Shown: positions 3,098 to 21,949 of the stretch, piece by piece
Numbering within the stretch: position 1 is the stretch's first letter
How the letters are laid out: each line of letters opens with the position of its first letter
Origin: Gemmatimonadota bacterium
GTDB lineage: Bacteria; Gemmatimonadota; Gemmatimonadetes; Gemmatimonadales; Gemmatimonadaceae
Direction of reading: 5' to 3'
Length of the DNA stretch: 64,000 nt
NCBI GenBank assembly: GCA_028287235.1
Contig: JAQBQB010000022.1
Span: forward strand, 62,001 to 126,000
Notes under the pieces: model-generated
What the model saw: the letters and a program-made list of their open reading frames with translations, nothing else
Told to the model about the DNA's origin: nothing
Database searches by the model: none
Made by a program: the position numbers and the translations under genes

Positions 3098-4354
3098 TTG
3101 CAGCAGCAAAGAGTTGAGTCCGGTTCGGAGCACAGCGGCTGCGCGCCGAGAGTTCTGTACGTCTGGGACGACGACTATCCGTGGGATGTTCGCACGGAGA
3201 AGGTGTGTGCGGCGTTGACGACGCATGGATCCGACGTGCATCTGGTTGCGCGCAACACGCGATGGGGGCCGCGCACCGAGCGACTGGCGGAGGCAACGGT
3301 GCATCGTATGACGCCGTGGCGCGCACTGGGGAAGAGAGTCGACGGAGCGTTGGCTTTTCCCGCATTCTTCAATCCGCGCTGGGTGTCGTTGCTCGCCGAG
3401 ACGATTCGCGCGGTGAAGCCCGACGTGCTGATCGTCCGCGATTTGCCGCTCTGTCCGACCGCATTGAATGCCGGGCGCCGATTCGGACTTCCGGTGATCC
3501 TCGACATGGCCGAGAACTACCCGGCGCTCGTGCGGTCGAACTGGGAGGCGAAGCGCCACACGGTGTTGGATTACGCGGTGCGAAACCCGGCGGCGGTCTC
3601 GGCGGTGGAGCGGTACTGCGTGCAGCGTGTGGATCGCACGCTCGTGGTGATCGAGGAGTCGGGCGATCGATTGGTGCGCGATCTCGGCGTGCCGGCGGAT
3701 CGAATCGATGTGGTCGGCAACACGCCGCCGCGCGCGCGCGCCGAGCACGCGCCGCGCCCGCCTCGTGACGCGTCGTCGCCGCTCGAAGTCGCGTACTTGG
3801 GCATCTTCGAGATTCCACGGGGTATAGGAGACGTGCTGGAGGCAATGGCGCGCCTTCGCGGGCGGGCCAAGGTGCGACTCACCCTCGTGGGGGACGGGCG
3901 CGACATGACGATTTTTCGCGAGCAAGCAAGGCGACTGGCGCTGACGGACGACGAAGTGTCGTTCCGCGGATTTCTCGTGCACGACGACGCGCTCGCGGTA
4001 GTGGCGAAGGCGGACGTGGGCATCGTGCCGCATCGTGCCGTCGAAGCCTGGAACACGACGATCCCGAACAAGCTGTTCGACTACATGGCCGCCGGGCTGG
4101 CGGTGATCACGTCGGACGCGGCGCCGGCGGCTCGCGTGGTTCGCACGACTGGCGCGGGCGAAGTGTTCAGGTCAGGCGATGCGTCGGAGCTCGCCGACGC
4201 GATCGTGCGGCTCGCCGATCCGGCGCGCTGCGCCGCGGCGGCGGCAGCGGGACAACGAGCGATTCGCGATCGGTATCACTGGGAACAGGACGCGTCGACG
4301 CTCGCCGCGGCGGTCTCGCTCGTCGCGCGAGGGCGCGACGTTGCGGTCGCGTGA
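3098..4354 (+). CDS. GT4-family glycosyltransferase
   Basis: 418-aa GT-B fold glycosyltransferase, first gene of the EPS locus. The N-terminal acceptor domain has the strand RVLYVWDDDYPWDVRTEK. The C-terminal donor domain shows LTLVGDG, a TIPNKLFDYMAAGLAVI nucleotide-sugar-binding segment near residue 320, and a conserved Glu in GAGEVF. It probably adds one sugar to the lipid-linked repeat unit on the cytosolic face of the inner membrane. The start is a TTG with GAGGAG at 3089-3094; no ATG or GTG fits upstream of the first conserved strand. Donor and acceptor cannot be read from sequence. Confidence 0.88.
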   Translation: MQQQRVESGSEHSGCAPRVLYVWDDDYPWDVRTEKVCAALTTHGSDVHLVARNTRWGPRTERLAEATVHRMTPWRALGKRVDGALAFPAFFNPRWVSLLAETIRAVKPDVLIVRDLPLCPTALNAGRRFGLPVILDMAENYPALVRSNWEAKRHTVLDYAVRNPAAVSAVERYCVQRVDRTLVVIEESGDRLVRDLGVPADRIDVVGNTPPRARAEHAPRPPRDASSPLEVAYLGIFEIPRGIGDVLEAMARLRGRAKVRLTLVGDGRDMTIFREQARRLALTDDEVSFRGFLVHDDALAVVAKADVGIVPHRAVEAWNTTIPNKLFDYMAAGLAVITSDAAPAARVVRTTGAGEVFRSGDASELADAIVRLADPARCAAAAAAGQRAIRDRYHWEQDASTLAAAVSLVARGRDVAVA

Positions 4355-5888: not shown

Positions 5889-6773
5889 ATGTCGTTGTCG
5901 TTTCACGCGGCCCAGACACCGCACTTTTTCACGGTCGACGTCGAGGATTACTTCCAGGTTGGCGCGTTCGAGCGGTTGATCCCGCGGTCGACCTGGGACA
6001 GCTACGCCTGCCGCGTCGAGCGCAACGTGGATCGGTTGCTCGAGCTTCTCGGAAGCGCCGGAGCAACGGGCACGTTCTTCACGCTGGGATGGATCGCCGA
6101 CCGGTATCCGCAAATGGTGAAGCGGATCGCGCGCGGCGGACACGAGATCGCGTCGCACGGAGCGACGCATCGTCGCGTGAACCTGCTGTCGCCCGCCGAG
6201 TTTCGTGAAGAAATTCGCAGCTCGAAGGCCACGCTCGAGGATGCGTCGGGTACGGTGGTGAGCGGCTACCGCGCTCCGAACTTCTCGATTCTGCCGGGCT
6301 ACGAATGGGCGTTCGACGTGCTGCTCGAGGAGGGCTACGAGTACGACTCGAGCCGCTTCCCCATTCAGCGTCCCGGCTACGGATCGCCAAACACGCCGCG
6401 TTATGCGCACGGAATCACCTGCTCGTCGGGTACGCTGCTCGAGCTGCCGATGACCACGCTCGACGTGATGGGCGCGCACATTCCTGCCGCGGGCGGCGCG
6501 TACCTACGGCACTTCCCGTACAGCGTCGTACGCAGCGCGTTTCGTGCGCGGCAGAACGCCGGGATACCCGGTGTGTTCTACATGCACCCGTGGGAGATCG
6601 ATCCGGAGCAGCCGCGCGTCGCGGCGCCGTTCGTCACGCGACTTCGCCACTACGGCGGTCTGAAAAAGATGCAGCCGCGCATCGAGCGGATGCTCGGAGA
6701 ATTTCGATTCACGTCGGTCGCCGACGCGCTGCCGGACATCCGGCGGACGGCGCCGCTCGTTCACGCCGCGTAG
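5889..6773 (+). CDS. XrtA-type polysaccharide deacetylase (NodB fold with DUF3473 tail)
   Basis: 294-aa NodB-fold deacetylase. Seen: TVDVEDYFQV at residues 15-24 (the VDVEDY variant of the catalytic Asp motif typical of the exosortase-A-associated deacetylases), HEIASHGATH near residues 83-92 supplying the metal-binding His pair, a YRAPNFS motif, and a C-terminal region with FYMHPWEIDPEQPR (DUF3473-like). It should remove acetyl groups from N-acetylated sugars of the EPS. No signal peptide is visible. It is followed with no gap by the FemAB-like gene, the same order as in exosortase-associated EPS loci. Confidence 0.9.
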   Translation: MSLSFHAAQTPHFFTVDVEDYFQVGAFERLIPRSTWDSYACRVERNVDRLLELLGSAGATGTFFTLGWIADRYPQMVKRIARGGHEIASHGATHRRVNLLSPAEFREEIRSSKATLEDASGTVVSGYRAPNFSILPGYEWAFDVLLEEGYEYDSSRFPIQRPGYGSPNTPRYAHGITCSSGTLLELPMTTLDVMGAHIPAAGGAYLRHFPYSVVRSAFRARQNAGIPGVFYMHPWEIDPEQPRVAAPFVTRLRHYGGLKKMQPRIERMLGEFRFTSVADALPDIRRTAPLVHAA

Positions 6774-7847
6774 ATGTCTCCGGCGCAGGCAACGGAGACG
6801 CGCGCGACCGACAACGCGGCGGCGCAGGGACTGACCGTCGGTCCGTTCGCCGGAGAACCGGCTGAGTGGGACGCGTTCGCCGAGCGACAGGCGGGCTACA
6901 CGCATTATCACAAGTACGGTTGGCGGCGTGTGATGGAGCGTGTCTTCTCCCACGAGGGCGTGTACCTGGCTGCGCGCGACGCTGCGGGCGAGCTCGCGGG
7001 AATTCTTCCGCTCATCAGGATGAGAAGCGCGCTGTTCGGTCGCCAGCTCTGTTCCATGCCGTTTCTGAACTACGGCGGTCCGATCGGCAGCGACGACGCG
7101 ATTCGGGCGCTATCCAGCGTGGCGGCAGAGCAGGCCGGGCGCGAGCGCACGAAGACGCTGGAGTACCGCGCGCGCGTACCGCTACCGGTCGACTTTCCGT
7201 CGTCGTCGCACAAGATCACGGTGACGATGGATCTCAAGCCCAACGCGTCGCAGGCGCTGTTCAAGTCGCTGCCGTCGCAGGTGCGCAACCAGGTACGCAA
7301 GCCGATCAAGGCCGGCGTGACGATGCGGTTCGGCGCGGATCAGGTGCGGCCGTTCTTCGAGGTGTTCGCGCGCAACATGCGCGATCTCGGAACGCCGACG
7401 CACACGCCGAAGCTGTTCGAGGCGATCGCGGCGGAGTTTCCGAACGACGCGATCTTCGGCTGCGCGTACGTCGGCGACAAACCGGTCGCGGCGGGCTGTG
7501 GGATCGTATGGGGCAACGAGATCGAGATGGCCTGGGGCTCGGCGCTCCGCGAGTACAACAAGTCGCACGCGCCGAACATGATGATGTACTGGTCGTTCAT
7601 GGAGCGCGCCTGCGAATTGGGGCTGAGCGTCTTCAACTTCGGCCGCTGTACGCCGGGCGAAGGCACGCATCGGTTCAAGACTCAGTGGGGCGGCCGCGAC
7701 GAGGCGCTGTGGTGGTACGGGCCGCACGTCAACGAGCTCGGGAAGATAGGAGCCGCCGAGCGGTACGGGCCGTTGGTGTGGCGGCATCTTCCGCTGCCGA
7801 TCGCGAACATGATCGGCCCCTGGGTGCGGCGAGGAATCTCGGCGTGA
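6774..7847 (+). CDS. FemAB-family protein of the XrtA/PEP-CTERM-associated type
   Basis: 357-aa protein with two GNAT-like lobes. Seen: YTHYHKYGWRRVMERVF near residue 43, LPSQVRNQVRKPIKAGV near residue 165, and FNFGRCTPGEGTHRFKTQWGG near the end, all typical of the FemAB-like proteins encoded next to exosortase-A systems. FemAB proteins transfer amino acids from aminoacyl-tRNA, but the substrate of this branch is unknown. The start abuts the stop of the deacetylase; the stop overlaps the next gene by GTGA. This is part of a translationally coupled run 5889-11246. Confidence 0.88.
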   Translation: MSPAQATETRATDNAAAQGLTVGPFAGEPAEWDAFAERQAGYTHYHKYGWRRVMERVFSHEGVYLAARDAAGELAGILPLIRMRSALFGRQLCSMPFLNYGGPIGSDDAIRALSSVAAEQAGRERTKTLEYRARVPLPVDFPSSSHKITVTMDLKPNASQALFKSLPSQVRNQVRKPIKAGVTMRFGADQVRPFFEVFARNMRDLGTPTHTPKLFEAIAAEFPNDAIFGCAYVGDKPVAAGCGIVWGNEIEMAWGSALREYNKSHAPNMMMYWSFMERACELGLSVFNFGRCTPGEGTHRFKTQWGGRDEALWWYGPHVNELGKIGAAERYGPLVWRHLPLPIANMIGPWVRRGISA

Positions 7848-18523: not shown

Positions 18524-18582
18524 TTCGTTGTGTTCAATCGGGATGTTTTGAGAACGTGATCAATGCACGGCGCATACCAACG

Positions 18583-18600
18583 GTGTGATCGCAGTCACAC
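18583..18600. promoter_or_regulatory. Perfect CRP/FNR-family palindrome between divergent EPS genes
   Basis: GTGTGATCGCAGTCACAC: exact TGTGA-N6-TCACA half sites, extended by one more G/C pair. It lies in the 159-base region between the Wza-like gene (start 18523, minus) and the Wzc-like kinase gene (start 18683, plus). It matches the consensus bound by CRP-type activators (CRP, Clp, Vfr) and could control both directions. Confidence 0.6.
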
Positions 18601-18682
18601 GAATTGGCCGGAGACTTGCCTCAAGTGGAGTTCGTCGCGGAGACGATCTTCGCGGCGACGTGGCCGCTCATCCCATCGCTGT

Positions 18683-21082
18683 ATGTCTGGACACCTGGTG
18701 CCATCGAACCGGCGCACCGCGCCGGCCCAAGCCGATCACAGACAACTCGCACAATCGTCGTGGCCGGAGCCACCACGCGGGCCCGCTGCACCCGCGGCGA
18801 GTCACGGATTCCAGTGGCGTCGCTATGCCGACGCCGTGCGTCGGCACCGATGGTTGGTGCTCGCGCTCGCATTCGTCGGCATTGGAGCCGGTTGGGTCGC
18901 CAGCCGATACGTGAAGCCGCAGTACGAGGCGCACATCTCGATCTGGATTCCGGCCGAGGACCGAACGCAGCAGACTGCACCGATCGGCGGCGCGCGCGTG
19001 CTCGATGCCGCGGGGTGGGCCGATCTCACGACGAGCTACGCGGTGCTCGACAAGGTGGCGATCGAGAACGGGCTGCTCGCCGGCACGACGGATACGTCGA
19101 AGCAAGCGGCGTTCGCCAATTTCCACACAAGTGACAAGCTCGTCCCGGGGCAGTACACGCTCACATTCACGAACGGTGGTCAGCGCTATACACTGACGCC
19201 AGTGCGCGGTACGCCGGAGTCCGGCGCGGTCGGTGATTCAATTGGACGCTCGTTTGGATTCCTCTGGGCGCCAACCGCTCGCCAGCTCGGAACGTCGAGC
19301 CCCATCGATTTCAACGTCATCACGCCGCGCCAGGCCGCGACCTACCTGCGGCAGCGACTCACCGTGGCGCTCTCCGATTCGAGCTTCATCGTCGCGCGCC
19401 TTCGCGGGCCGAACCCCGAGCGTGACTCGAAGATCTTGAATACGCTCGGACGCGAAGTGATCGCAACGGCGACGAGCCTGAAGCAACACAACGGCACGCA
19501 GGTGCTCAGCACACTGCAGACTCAGCTCACCGACGCGAGCGGAGCGCTCAGATCGTCGGAGGACGTGCTCAATCGTTTCCGGACGAACGCCATCACGCAG
19601 CCGTCGGAACAGTCGATCACCGACGCGATGCGCGACCCGACGGCGTCGCAATACTTTTCGTCGTCCGCCGCGCGGGACAGCCTCAAGAACGATCGCGAAG
19701 CGTTGGAGCGTGTCGTCGCGAGCGCGCGCACGCAACCGATCGACGTGGGCGCACTCCTGTCGATTCCGTCGGCGCGCAGCGCACCGGAGCTCACGGCGGC
19801 GATCGCGGAACTCAACAAGGCCGACTCCACCTATCAGGGCATGCGCCGGCAATTCACCGCAGACTATCGTCCCGTGAAGGATGTCGAGGGCCAGATCACG
19901 CGGCTCAAGACGCAGACGATTCCGCAGATCGCCAGCCATATCCTCGGTCGCCTGCAGACGTCGCAGATGCAATTCGCCACGCGCGCCTTCGACGCGCAGC
20001 GAAAGCTGCAGGCCATTCCGTCGCGCACGCTCGAGGAAGCGCGACTTCGCCGCGACGTGGCGACGAGAGAGAATCTCTACAACACGCTCAAGTCGCGCGT
20101 CGACAACTCGCGCATGGCGCAGCAAAGCTCCGTTGCCGAAGCGAGTGTGCTCGACAGCGCCGTCGCGCCGACGCAGCCGGTGGGCAATACGCGGCCGTAC
20201 TTCCTCGTCGTGAGCGTGCTGGTCGCGCTCGCGCTGGGCGTCGGCGTCGCACTGGTGCTCGATCGCTTCGATCCCAAGATTCGCTATCCCGAGCAGGTGG
20301 GCGAGCTCGGGCTGCACTTCCTCGCGGCCGTTCCGCACATGAATGGAAGCGTGGAAATCGATCACTCGGCGGAGGAAGCCGCGCAGGCCGTGGAGTCGTT
20401 CCGAACGCTGCGGTTGAATCTCCGACACCAGCAGCCCGGAGCCGACGCGGTGCAGCTCACGGTGACGAGCCCCGGCGCGTCGGAAGGGAAGTCGCTTCTC
20501 GCCGCGAACCTCGCGCTGTCGTTCGCCGAGGCGGGATATCGCACCCTGCTGATCGACGGCGACATTCGGCGCGGCCGGCAGCACGAGACGTTCGGCGCCA
20601 GCATTCAGCCGGGGCTCACCGATTTCCTCGCGGGCAACGCGCGCGCGGACGAGATCGCGCGTCGCTCCACGCATCCGAATCTGCTCGTGATTCCGTCGGG
20701 CTCGCGCGTGGGGAGCGGGCCGGAATTGCTGATGTCGCCGGAGCTCCCGCGCCTCCTCGCCGCGGTGCGTCCACTCTTCAACGCGATCATCGTGGACAGC
20801 GCGCCACTCGGCGCCGGCGCCGATGCGCTCGCGCTCGGCGCCGCCACCGGAAACGTGATGCTCGTGTTGCGGGCTGGGTCGACCGAGCGCCGCATGGCGG
20901 AATCGCGCATCTCGCTGCTGCGGCAGGCGCCAATCCGGGTACTCGGCGCGGTGCTCAACGACATCGGCGCAGCGGCGGTCTACGACGAATACAGCTACAT
21001 CGAGGGCTACTACGTTCCGGTCGCCCACGAGTCTGTGCCGACCGAGGTGTTGCCGGCACACGTCCAAGTGCAGGGGGACTGA
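18683..21082 (+). CDS. Wzc-like chain-length regulator fused to bacterial tyrosine kinase
   Basis: 799-aa inner-membrane protein. TM1 about residues 53-72, a long periplasmic coiled-coil Wzz/GNVR-like region, TM2 about 505-526, then a cytoplasmic BY-kinase domain: Walker A SPGASEGKS about 595-604, Walker A' TLLIDGD about 620-626, Walker B AIIVDSAP about 699-706. The C-terminus has a Tyr cluster (YDEYSYIEGYYVP, about 768-780), the usual autophosphorylation tail. It controls polymer length and couples to the Wza-type exporter. Start taken at the ATG 18683; the frame is open to 18563 but that part overlaps the palindrome region. Three bases before the GrpE-like gene. Confidence 0.9.
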   Translation: MSGHLVPSNRRTAPAQADHRQLAQSSWPEPPRGPAAPAASHGFQWRRYADAVRRHRWLVLALAFVGIGAGWVASRYVKPQYEAHISIWIPAEDRTQQTAPIGGARVLDAAGWADLTTSYAVLDKVAIENGLLAGTTDTSKQAAFANFHTSDKLVPGQYTLTFTNGGQRYTLTPVRGTPESGAVGDSIGRSFGFLWAPTARQLGTSSPIDFNVITPRQAATYLRQRLTVALSDSSFIVARLRGPNPERDSKILNTLGREVIATATSLKQHNGTQVLSTLQTQLTDASGALRSSEDVLNRFRTNAITQPSEQSITDAMRDPTASQYFSSSAARDSLKNDREALERVVASARTQPIDVGALLSIPSARSAPELTAAIAELNKADSTYQGMRRQFTADYRPVKDVEGQITRLKTQTIPQIASHILGRLQTSQMQFATRAFDAQRKLQAIPSRTLEEARLRRDVATRENLYNTLKSRVDNSRMAQQSSVAEASVLDSAVAPTQPVGNTRPYFLVVSVLVALALGVGVALVLDRFDPKIRYPEQVGELGLHFLAAVPHMNGSVEIDHSAEEAAQAVESFRTLRLNLRHQQPGADAVQLTVTSPGASEGKSLLAANLALSFAEAGYRTLLIDGDIRRGRQHETFGASIQPGLTDFLAGNARADEIARRSTHPNLLVIPSGSRVGSGPELLMSPELPRLLAAVRPLFNAIIVDSAPLGAGADALALGAATGNVMLVLRAGSTERRMAESRISLLRQAPIRVLGAVLNDIGAAAVYDEYSYIEGYYVPVAHESVPTEVLPAHVQVQGD

Positions 21083-21085
21083 GCG

Positions 21086-21949
21086 ATGCCAGATATCGAG
21101 CAGGAGCGCAACATATCCGGGATTGTGCGACAGATCCCGATATCGGACGAAGCCGAGTTCGACGACGTCCTCGACACGCCGAGCGATCTGCTCTCGGCCT
21201 GGCAGGGTCAGGTTCGCGGGCTGGCGGATCATCCACCCGTGAACGCCGACGACAATGCCACGTCGATGCTCGCGCAGCTTCGCGTCGTGGCCGACGACCT
21301 TGCGCGCCCGGCGTCCCGCTCCGCTCGCACCAAGCTGCTGACGACGGGCGAGCAGGAGCTCCCGATCGTATCGCTCGACGATGCGTCGAACGACACGCCA
21401 ACCGCGGCGGTGTTCGACATCAGCGGCATACAGCGCTCGATCGAAGACGCACAGCGGCGCATCGAATCGACCCTCACGAACAGCGAGAGTCGGCTCGCCG
21501 CCGCGTTCAACCAAGCCCTGACCGGCCTCGCCGACCGGACGAGCAGCGCGCACGAGTCACTGCTCGCCGACATGCGAAGCCAACTCGCCGAAGCGCGCGA
21601 GCAGATCGACGGCGAAAGCCGCGGTGCGCTCCAGCGCGCCATCGGCATGCTCTCGGTGCTCGAATCGCTGGACGACGTCGTTGCCTCGGTGAACGGGCGC
21701 GCCGACGACGCGTCGATCGGCCGCATTCAGCGTTTCGAGCGCGAAGCACGCGCGATGGCGCAGTTGGTCGAGCTCGAGGAGATCCCGAGTGAGGGCGCCG
21801 TCGATCCCGACCTGCACGAGATCGTGTCGACGGTGGGCGGAACGGCGCGCGCCGGCTCGATCGTCGAGGTGCGGCAGCGCGGCTATACATTCCGCGGCCG
21901 CGTCGTACGTCCGGCGCAGGTCGTCGTGTCTGCCCGCGGCAAAGCCTAG
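21086..21949 (+). CDS. Coiled-coil protein with GrpE-type C-terminal domain
   Basis: 287-aa protein, no signal peptide. Residues 1-110 are acidic and poorly structured; about 115-190 are strongly helical/coiled-coil (SIEDAQRRIESTLTNSESRL and following). Residues about 195-220 (AIGMLSVLESLDDVVASV) resemble the GrpE helix that precedes the beta domain, and residues 230-287 match the GrpE beta domain: GAVDPDLHEIVSTV, a short acidic-poor turn, then IVEVRQRGYTFRGRVVRPAQVVV. GrpE is the nucleotide-exchange factor of DnaK/Hsp70. Here it starts 3 bases after the Wzc-like kinase, so a DnaK partner tied to EPS export or an adapted scaffold is possible. It overlaps the convergent epimerase by 4 bases. 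The domain call is from motif reading and needs profile confirmation. Confidence 0.75.
   Translation: MPDIEQERNISGIVRQIPISDEAEFDDVLDTPSDLLSAWQGQVRGLADHPPVNADDNATSMLAQLRVVADDLARPASRSARTKLLTTGEQELPIVSLDDASNDTPTAAVFDISGIQRSIEDAQRRIESTLTNSESRLAAAFNQALTGLADRTSSAHESLLADMRSQLAEAREQIDGESRGALQRAIGMLSVLESLDDVVASVNGRADDASIGRIQRFEREARAMAQLVELEEIPSEGAVDPDLHEIVSTVGGTARAGSIVEVRQRGYTFRGRVVRPAQVVVSARGKA

Follow-up and report, generated by a model that had tools for sequence, protein, structure and literature searches.

Related systems

Operators of the CRP/GlxR type follow the consensus TGTGA-N6-TCACA, and the matching CRP recognition helix follows the rule RETV-R. When CRP activates, its usual position is -41.5, in a class II-like geometry. 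The redox regulator Rex reads a box with the consensus TTGTGAA-N4-TTCACAA. A c-di-GMP-responsive regulator of exopolysaccharide (EPS) production in Burkholderia belongs to the CRP/FNR family.

CRP-cAMP also inhibits sigma-54 promoters in E. coli (glnAp2, dctA, and Pu), where its target is the sigma-54 polymerase bound to the promoter; in the available part of that report, CRP is recruited by the polymerase, works remotely or in trans, or has no recognised site (PMC3900584). For EPS genes, sigma-54 control is described as widely predicted in the accessible text of one study (PMC3162934), and RpoN dependence as demonstrated for the PEP-CTERM gene pepA in that of another (PMC9850573). According to the sections available from Haft et al., the PrsR/RpoN-associated PEP-CTERM box is found only in Proteobacteria, ahead of PEP-CTERM genes (PMC1569441). 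In the Burkholderia BerA/BerB system, as far as the available text goes, one EPS system is controlled by a c-di-GMP-responsive regulator together with RpoN, in a cascade where RpoN drives berA (PMC5552954). Studies of CRP regulons or EPS promoters in Gemmatimonadota did not turn up in our search of the open-access literature.

The locus examined here combines features of these systems. Its palindrome has the half-sites and spacing of CRP/GlxR-type operators, and the CRP of the same genome shares the SRETV helix with solved CRP/FNR relatives; judged by sequence, it differs in that the site lies between two sigma-54-like promoters and in the ligand-contact residues of the CRP C-helix. What sets it apart from the E. 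coli cases is a perfect palindrome that would serve two promoters at once, with EPS export genes as targets. With the PEP-CTERM box and pepA it has in common sigma-54 -24/-12 elements tied to exopolysaccharide/XrtA-type systems, but the promoters here stand before export and kinase genes, and none of the three activators scanned, out of 17 strong Sigma54_activat domains in the genome, reaches the 502.6-bit cut-off for PrsR (TIGR02915). Whereas RpoN and the regulator form a cascade in Burkholderia, both elements share one intergenic region here.

The palindrome and its gene neighbourhood

We analysed a 64-kb window, a whole stretch of DNA from a bacterium of the Gemmatimonadaceae, in which GTGTGATCGCAGTCACAC is the sole exact TGTGAN6TCACA (Table 1). 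It lies between divergent genes for a Wza-like exporter and a Wzc-like kinase, as originally predicted. The nearest NCBIfam model to the exporter is that of the XrtA export protein (TIGR03027), with a score below the cut-off. With the kinase starting at the ATG at 18683, the spacer covers 18524-18682 (159 bp). The program-made list of open reading frames opens the kinase at an in-frame ATG at 18563, which would place the palindrome inside the gene. We rejected this possibility: the source genome shares the start at 18683 (MSG[HQ]L[VI]P) with two congeners, G003 and G002, so the upstream ATG is probably not the kinase start. On these gene calls the palindrome is intergenic, and its half-sites fall in the promoter region as expected of a CRP-type operator. 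No sigma-70-like promoter was found.

Table 1. Positions of the features discussed; window coordinates unless a contig is given.
Feature	Position	Strand	Remarks
Wza-like polysaccharide export protein (Poly_export + SLBB), 259 aa	17744..18523	-	Pfam PF02563 and PF10531 above cut-off
Near-invariant block with sigma-54-like exporter promoter	18561..18580	-	TGG 18579-18577, TGC 18567-18565; predicted start ~18553
CRP-type palindrome GTGTGA-N6-TCACAC	18583..18600	.	Centre ~39 bp upstream of both predicted starts
Sigma-54-like kinase promoter TGGCCGGAGACTTGCC	18605..18620	+	TGGC-N7-TTGC kept in 3/3 species; predicted start ~18631
8-pair stem or inverted repeat CGCGGAG...CTYCGCG, kinase leader	18635..18655	+	7/8 pairs kept in all 3 species
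Wzc-like chain-length determinant / BY-type tyrosine kinase	18683..21082	+	GNVR, CbiA, and TIGR01007 all above cut-off
Plain CRP-type protein, 226 aa	C11:64087..64764 (source genome, G000)	-	cNMP_binding and HTH_Crp_2 domains
Putative Rex regulon sites, source genome	C26:169965, C25:54459, C4:5319, C9:15124 (L011, L010, L002, L005)		Spacers recur in the genus

Elsewhere in the window (5889-7847), an XrtA-type polysaccharide deacetylase and FemAB proteins score above their NCBIfam cut-offs, and the cluster is therefore of an XrtA/PEP-CTERM-like EPS type. Directly after the kinase gene, at 21086-21949, lies a GrpE-like protein for which every match is below cut-off. The stem in the kinase leader might function as RNA or serve as the site of an activator; both sides of its outermost pair are changed in one species, and the pair is broken in another.

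Sigma-54-like blocks beside the palindrome

Besides the source genome, only G003 and G002 carry the divergent pair closely (exporter identity 73% and 68%, respectively), and the resulting three-species footprint is shallow. A further locus considered as a fourth species was set aside, being identical to that of G002 over 3,759 nt. In this alignment the most conserved parts of the spacer are two flanking blocks, not the palindrome. On the exporter side, 19 of the 20 columns of CAATGCACGGCGYATACCAA are identical in the three species. Read outwards, the blocks are TGGTATRCGCCGTGCA and TGGCCRRAGACTTGCC, which have little in common beyond GG and GC at the exact 12-bp spacing of sigma-54 -24/-12 elements, a feature present in both blocks of all three species; the transcription starts in Table 1 were predicted from this pattern, 12 bases after the -12 C. 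RpoN is present in all three genomes, beside the enhancer-binding domains counted above in the source genome.

The outward TGG-N9-TGC pair is invariant in the three species. When letters were permuted among the invariant columns, none of 20,000 trials gave the pattern on both strands and 0.7% gave it at least once, figures to be read with the fact that the pattern was picked after the alignment had been inspected, which weighs against the claim. Genome-wide, the core TGGCN7TTGCW is not enriched (45 matches against 147 for the reversed control), and we dropped this count as supporting evidence. Divergent TGG-N9-TGC pairs occur four times in the window, the one in the EPS spacer included; the case for sigma-54 is for these reasons carried by conservation. 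We scanned twenty other exporter loci (L023-L042), and none has a conserved outward pair at the position it occupies in the three congeners. Near the two blocks we recognised no activator-binding site, the leader inverted repeat being a candidate only.

The palindrome itself is kept at the orthologous place in two of the three species, exactly in the source genome and with one mismatch, in the right half, in G003, where the blocks are kept. It is lost in G002 although crp (88% identity) and both promoter blocks are retained, which counts against a CRP operator. With one of three carriers of the divergent pair lacking it, any such control would be lineage-specific. From the place of the palindrome to the kinase promoter, the distance in both G003 and G002 is longer by about 11 bases, roughly a turn of the helix; to the exporter promoter it is equal in the source genome and G003. 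By sequence comparison, then, the putative sigma-54 pair is the more conserved feature.

The motif across the genome

The source genome (5.73 Mb, 31 contigs) contains 13 exact copies of TGTGAN6TCACA and none of the reversed control pattern. Order-1 to order-3 Markov models built on the window predict 1.3-2.3 copies per 5.73 Mb and 3e-5 to 6e-5 per 159-bp stretch, which bears out the original view that an exact match in this spacer is unlikely by chance. With one mismatch allowed, matches number 74, against 24 for the control. Exact copies in G002, G001, G005, G003, and G004 number 5, 9, 6, 7, and 8, and control matches 0, 1, 1, 2, and 0. The palindrome thus belongs to a genuine genomic motif.

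A plain scan of this kind, which had been proposed to check the prediction, nevertheless overcounts, because four of the 13 matches are Rex-type: their A/T-rich spacers are found again in congeners without a single change, and by the Rex consensus we take these matches to be Rex boxes. We thus rejected the idea that all 13 form a single CRP regulon. The four are all intergenic by our gene calls; one stands before a gene whose product has the N-terminal domain of the Rex type and a CoA-binding domain, and others lie ahead of an atpA-like gene and a cytochrome-type gene, names that come from reading the sequences. The EPS site, which reads GTGTGATCGCAGTCACAC, does not fit the Rex consensus.

Gene calls were made with a home-made codon-usage caller trained on the window, 93% of which it calls coding. 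By these calls, seven of the nine non-Rex matches in the source genome are intergenic and two lie inside genes, so the matches do not fall mostly at coding positions, as they would have had to in order to speak against the original prediction. Among the 35 matches of the five congeners, sorted by eye on their spacers, 18 are non-Rex; all 18 were inspected, and 11 are intergenic and seven inside genes.

A conserved CRP-family regulator and its candidate targets

Six places in the source genome match the cNMP_binding family, so that a genome devoid of CRP-family proteins, the other outcome that would have undone the prediction, is not what we found. One is the plain CRP-type protein of Table 1, and two other proteins also have both cNMP_binding and HTH_Crp_2 domains. 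The best solved relatives of the CRP-type protein are annotated as CRP/FNR regulators (e.g., 4byy, 4cyd, 3d0s), which we take to be GlxR and Mycobacterium tuberculosis CRP. A match was found in all 40 genomes searched (E up to 0.001), the best match being weak in some distant ones; orthologues are 88-94% identical across five congeners. We fetched the crp loci of 12 of the 40 genomes, and the recognition-helix string SRETVS is present in 12 of 12 orthologues, so that the search for a regulator with a matching helix was successful by the RETV-R rule. As its ligand, cAMP and c-di-GMP are both conceivable: the protein has the phosphate-binding PRSA cassette, but its C-helix carries Ala-Asp where the nearest solved relatives show Thr-Asn (10 of the 10 orthologues with an extractable stretch; two were not extracted). 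The source genome has one class III cyclase domain.

The palindrome also occurs, with at most one mismatch, beside crp itself in eight of the 12 loci (source genome, G005, G003, G002, G006, G014, G023, and, by eye, G018), ahead of a gene for a metallo-beta-lactamase-fold (MBL) protein. Its first base falls in the range from 5 bp ahead of the crp stop to 22 bp past it, and all copies lie at the stop or within about 40 bp downstream; none was found there in G001, G004, G021, and G010. In several crp loci (L131-L138), a second common string like GTGACNCCCTTCCTAGC stands between the palindrome and the MBL gene.

Most targets of the CRP-type motif differ between congeners. Two further ones recur in the source genome and G001 with the site upstream: a KaiB-linked small protein (48% identity) and a small W-VW protein (33%). 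Further sites in the source genome lie next to an HD-domain response regulator, beside a hybrid kinase accompanied by a GH16 gene, and at a KaiB/KaiC locus. At locus L158, KaiB and KaiC genes come after a small protein that has a CRP-type site (4241-4256) upstream, and G001 has a related protein and site.

Because the motif is enriched and intergenic, the CRP gene conserved, and the palindrome present beside crp in most loci, CRP-family recognition and a multi-gene regulon are supported at the sequence level, and the likely reader of the palindrome is the conserved CRP-family protein. The original proposal of CRP-family control is partly supported; it had overlooked the sigma-54-like blocks and did not foresee the loss in G002. 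With two conserved sigma-54-like promoters flanking the palindrome, the likely mechanism changes.

Proposed mechanism and alternatives

Our tentative reading, to which we give slightly less than an even chance, is that the palindrome is a CRP operator between the outward sigma-54 promoters of exporter and kinase, most likely hindering both. The lineage-conserved 226-aa regulator would bind the palindrome, which lies in the 24-bp gap between the -24 elements of the two predicted promoters, and RpoN would use one block for the Wza-like exporter and the other for the Wzc-like kinase. A CRP dimer, presumably ligand-bound, would fill this gap and overlap each of the two sigma-54 polymerase complexes at its upstream edge; most likely it would hinder these polymerases or their putative enhancer-binding activator. 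A single cyclic-nucleotide signal might in this way switch both halves of the export machine together; the arrangement suggests that one regulator sets both directions at once. Repression or anti-activation is our first guess as to sign because the reported effect of CRP on sigma-54 promoters in E. coli is inhibition, and by this analogy it may be about evenly balanced against all other outcomes taken together.

The position of the site speaks for the opposite sign, which we consider unlikely: CRP at about -39, near the -41.5 position, could activate by recruiting polymerase or bending the DNA, the blocks being bound by RpoN or another sigma factor. In G003 the exporter spacing is unchanged and the distance to the kinase promoter is greater by 11 bp, about one turn of the helix, which fits such an activator. 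A CRP footprint would, however, extend to the -24 elements, and the effects of CRP on sigma-54 promoters in the available part of the E. coli report are inhibitory (PMC3900584).

The conservation pattern raises a different and somewhat less probable explanation, in which the two blocks, read by RpoN together with some activator, form the real control region and the palindrome is recent or a chance occurrence with no role. The blocks are kept in three of three species and the palindrome in two, and the turnover of motif targets between congeners points the same way; yet the very low number of exact sites expected in the spacer and the one-mismatch copy at the equivalent place in G003 argue against chance. 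It is more improbable still that the palindrome is read by another protein. Candidates would be Rex, as the motif also occurs in the Rex-type boxes of this genome; a further CRP/FNR-type protein, as two others combine the cNMP_binding and HTH_Crp_2 domains; or the enhancer-binding activator of the promoter pair, as a sigma-54 activator must bind somewhere. Rex-type sites, however, have A/T-rich spacers recurring letter for letter in congeners, whereas the EPS site reads GTGAT...GTCAC, like several crp-adjacent sites.

Significance

The elements described here are of known kinds, in a little-studied group, and it is their combination that is unusual. A candidate CRP regulon is now testable, comprising the crp-MBL, EPS, and KaiB-linked sites and those at the HD-domain response regulator and the hybrid kinase/GH16 gene, and the analysis also yields a separate, putative Rex-type regulon and a concrete, putative divergent sigma-54 promoter pair for EPS export. 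Should CRP act between the two sigma-54 promoters, its known inhibitory effect would be extended to a dedicated shared operator, and the double-sided CRP/sigma-54 arrangement would be a new promoter architecture. It is possible, if doubtful, that Gemmatimonadaceae thus possess a symmetric CRP switch between mirrored sigma-54 promoters, through which one second messenger would silence or release exporter and kinase together.
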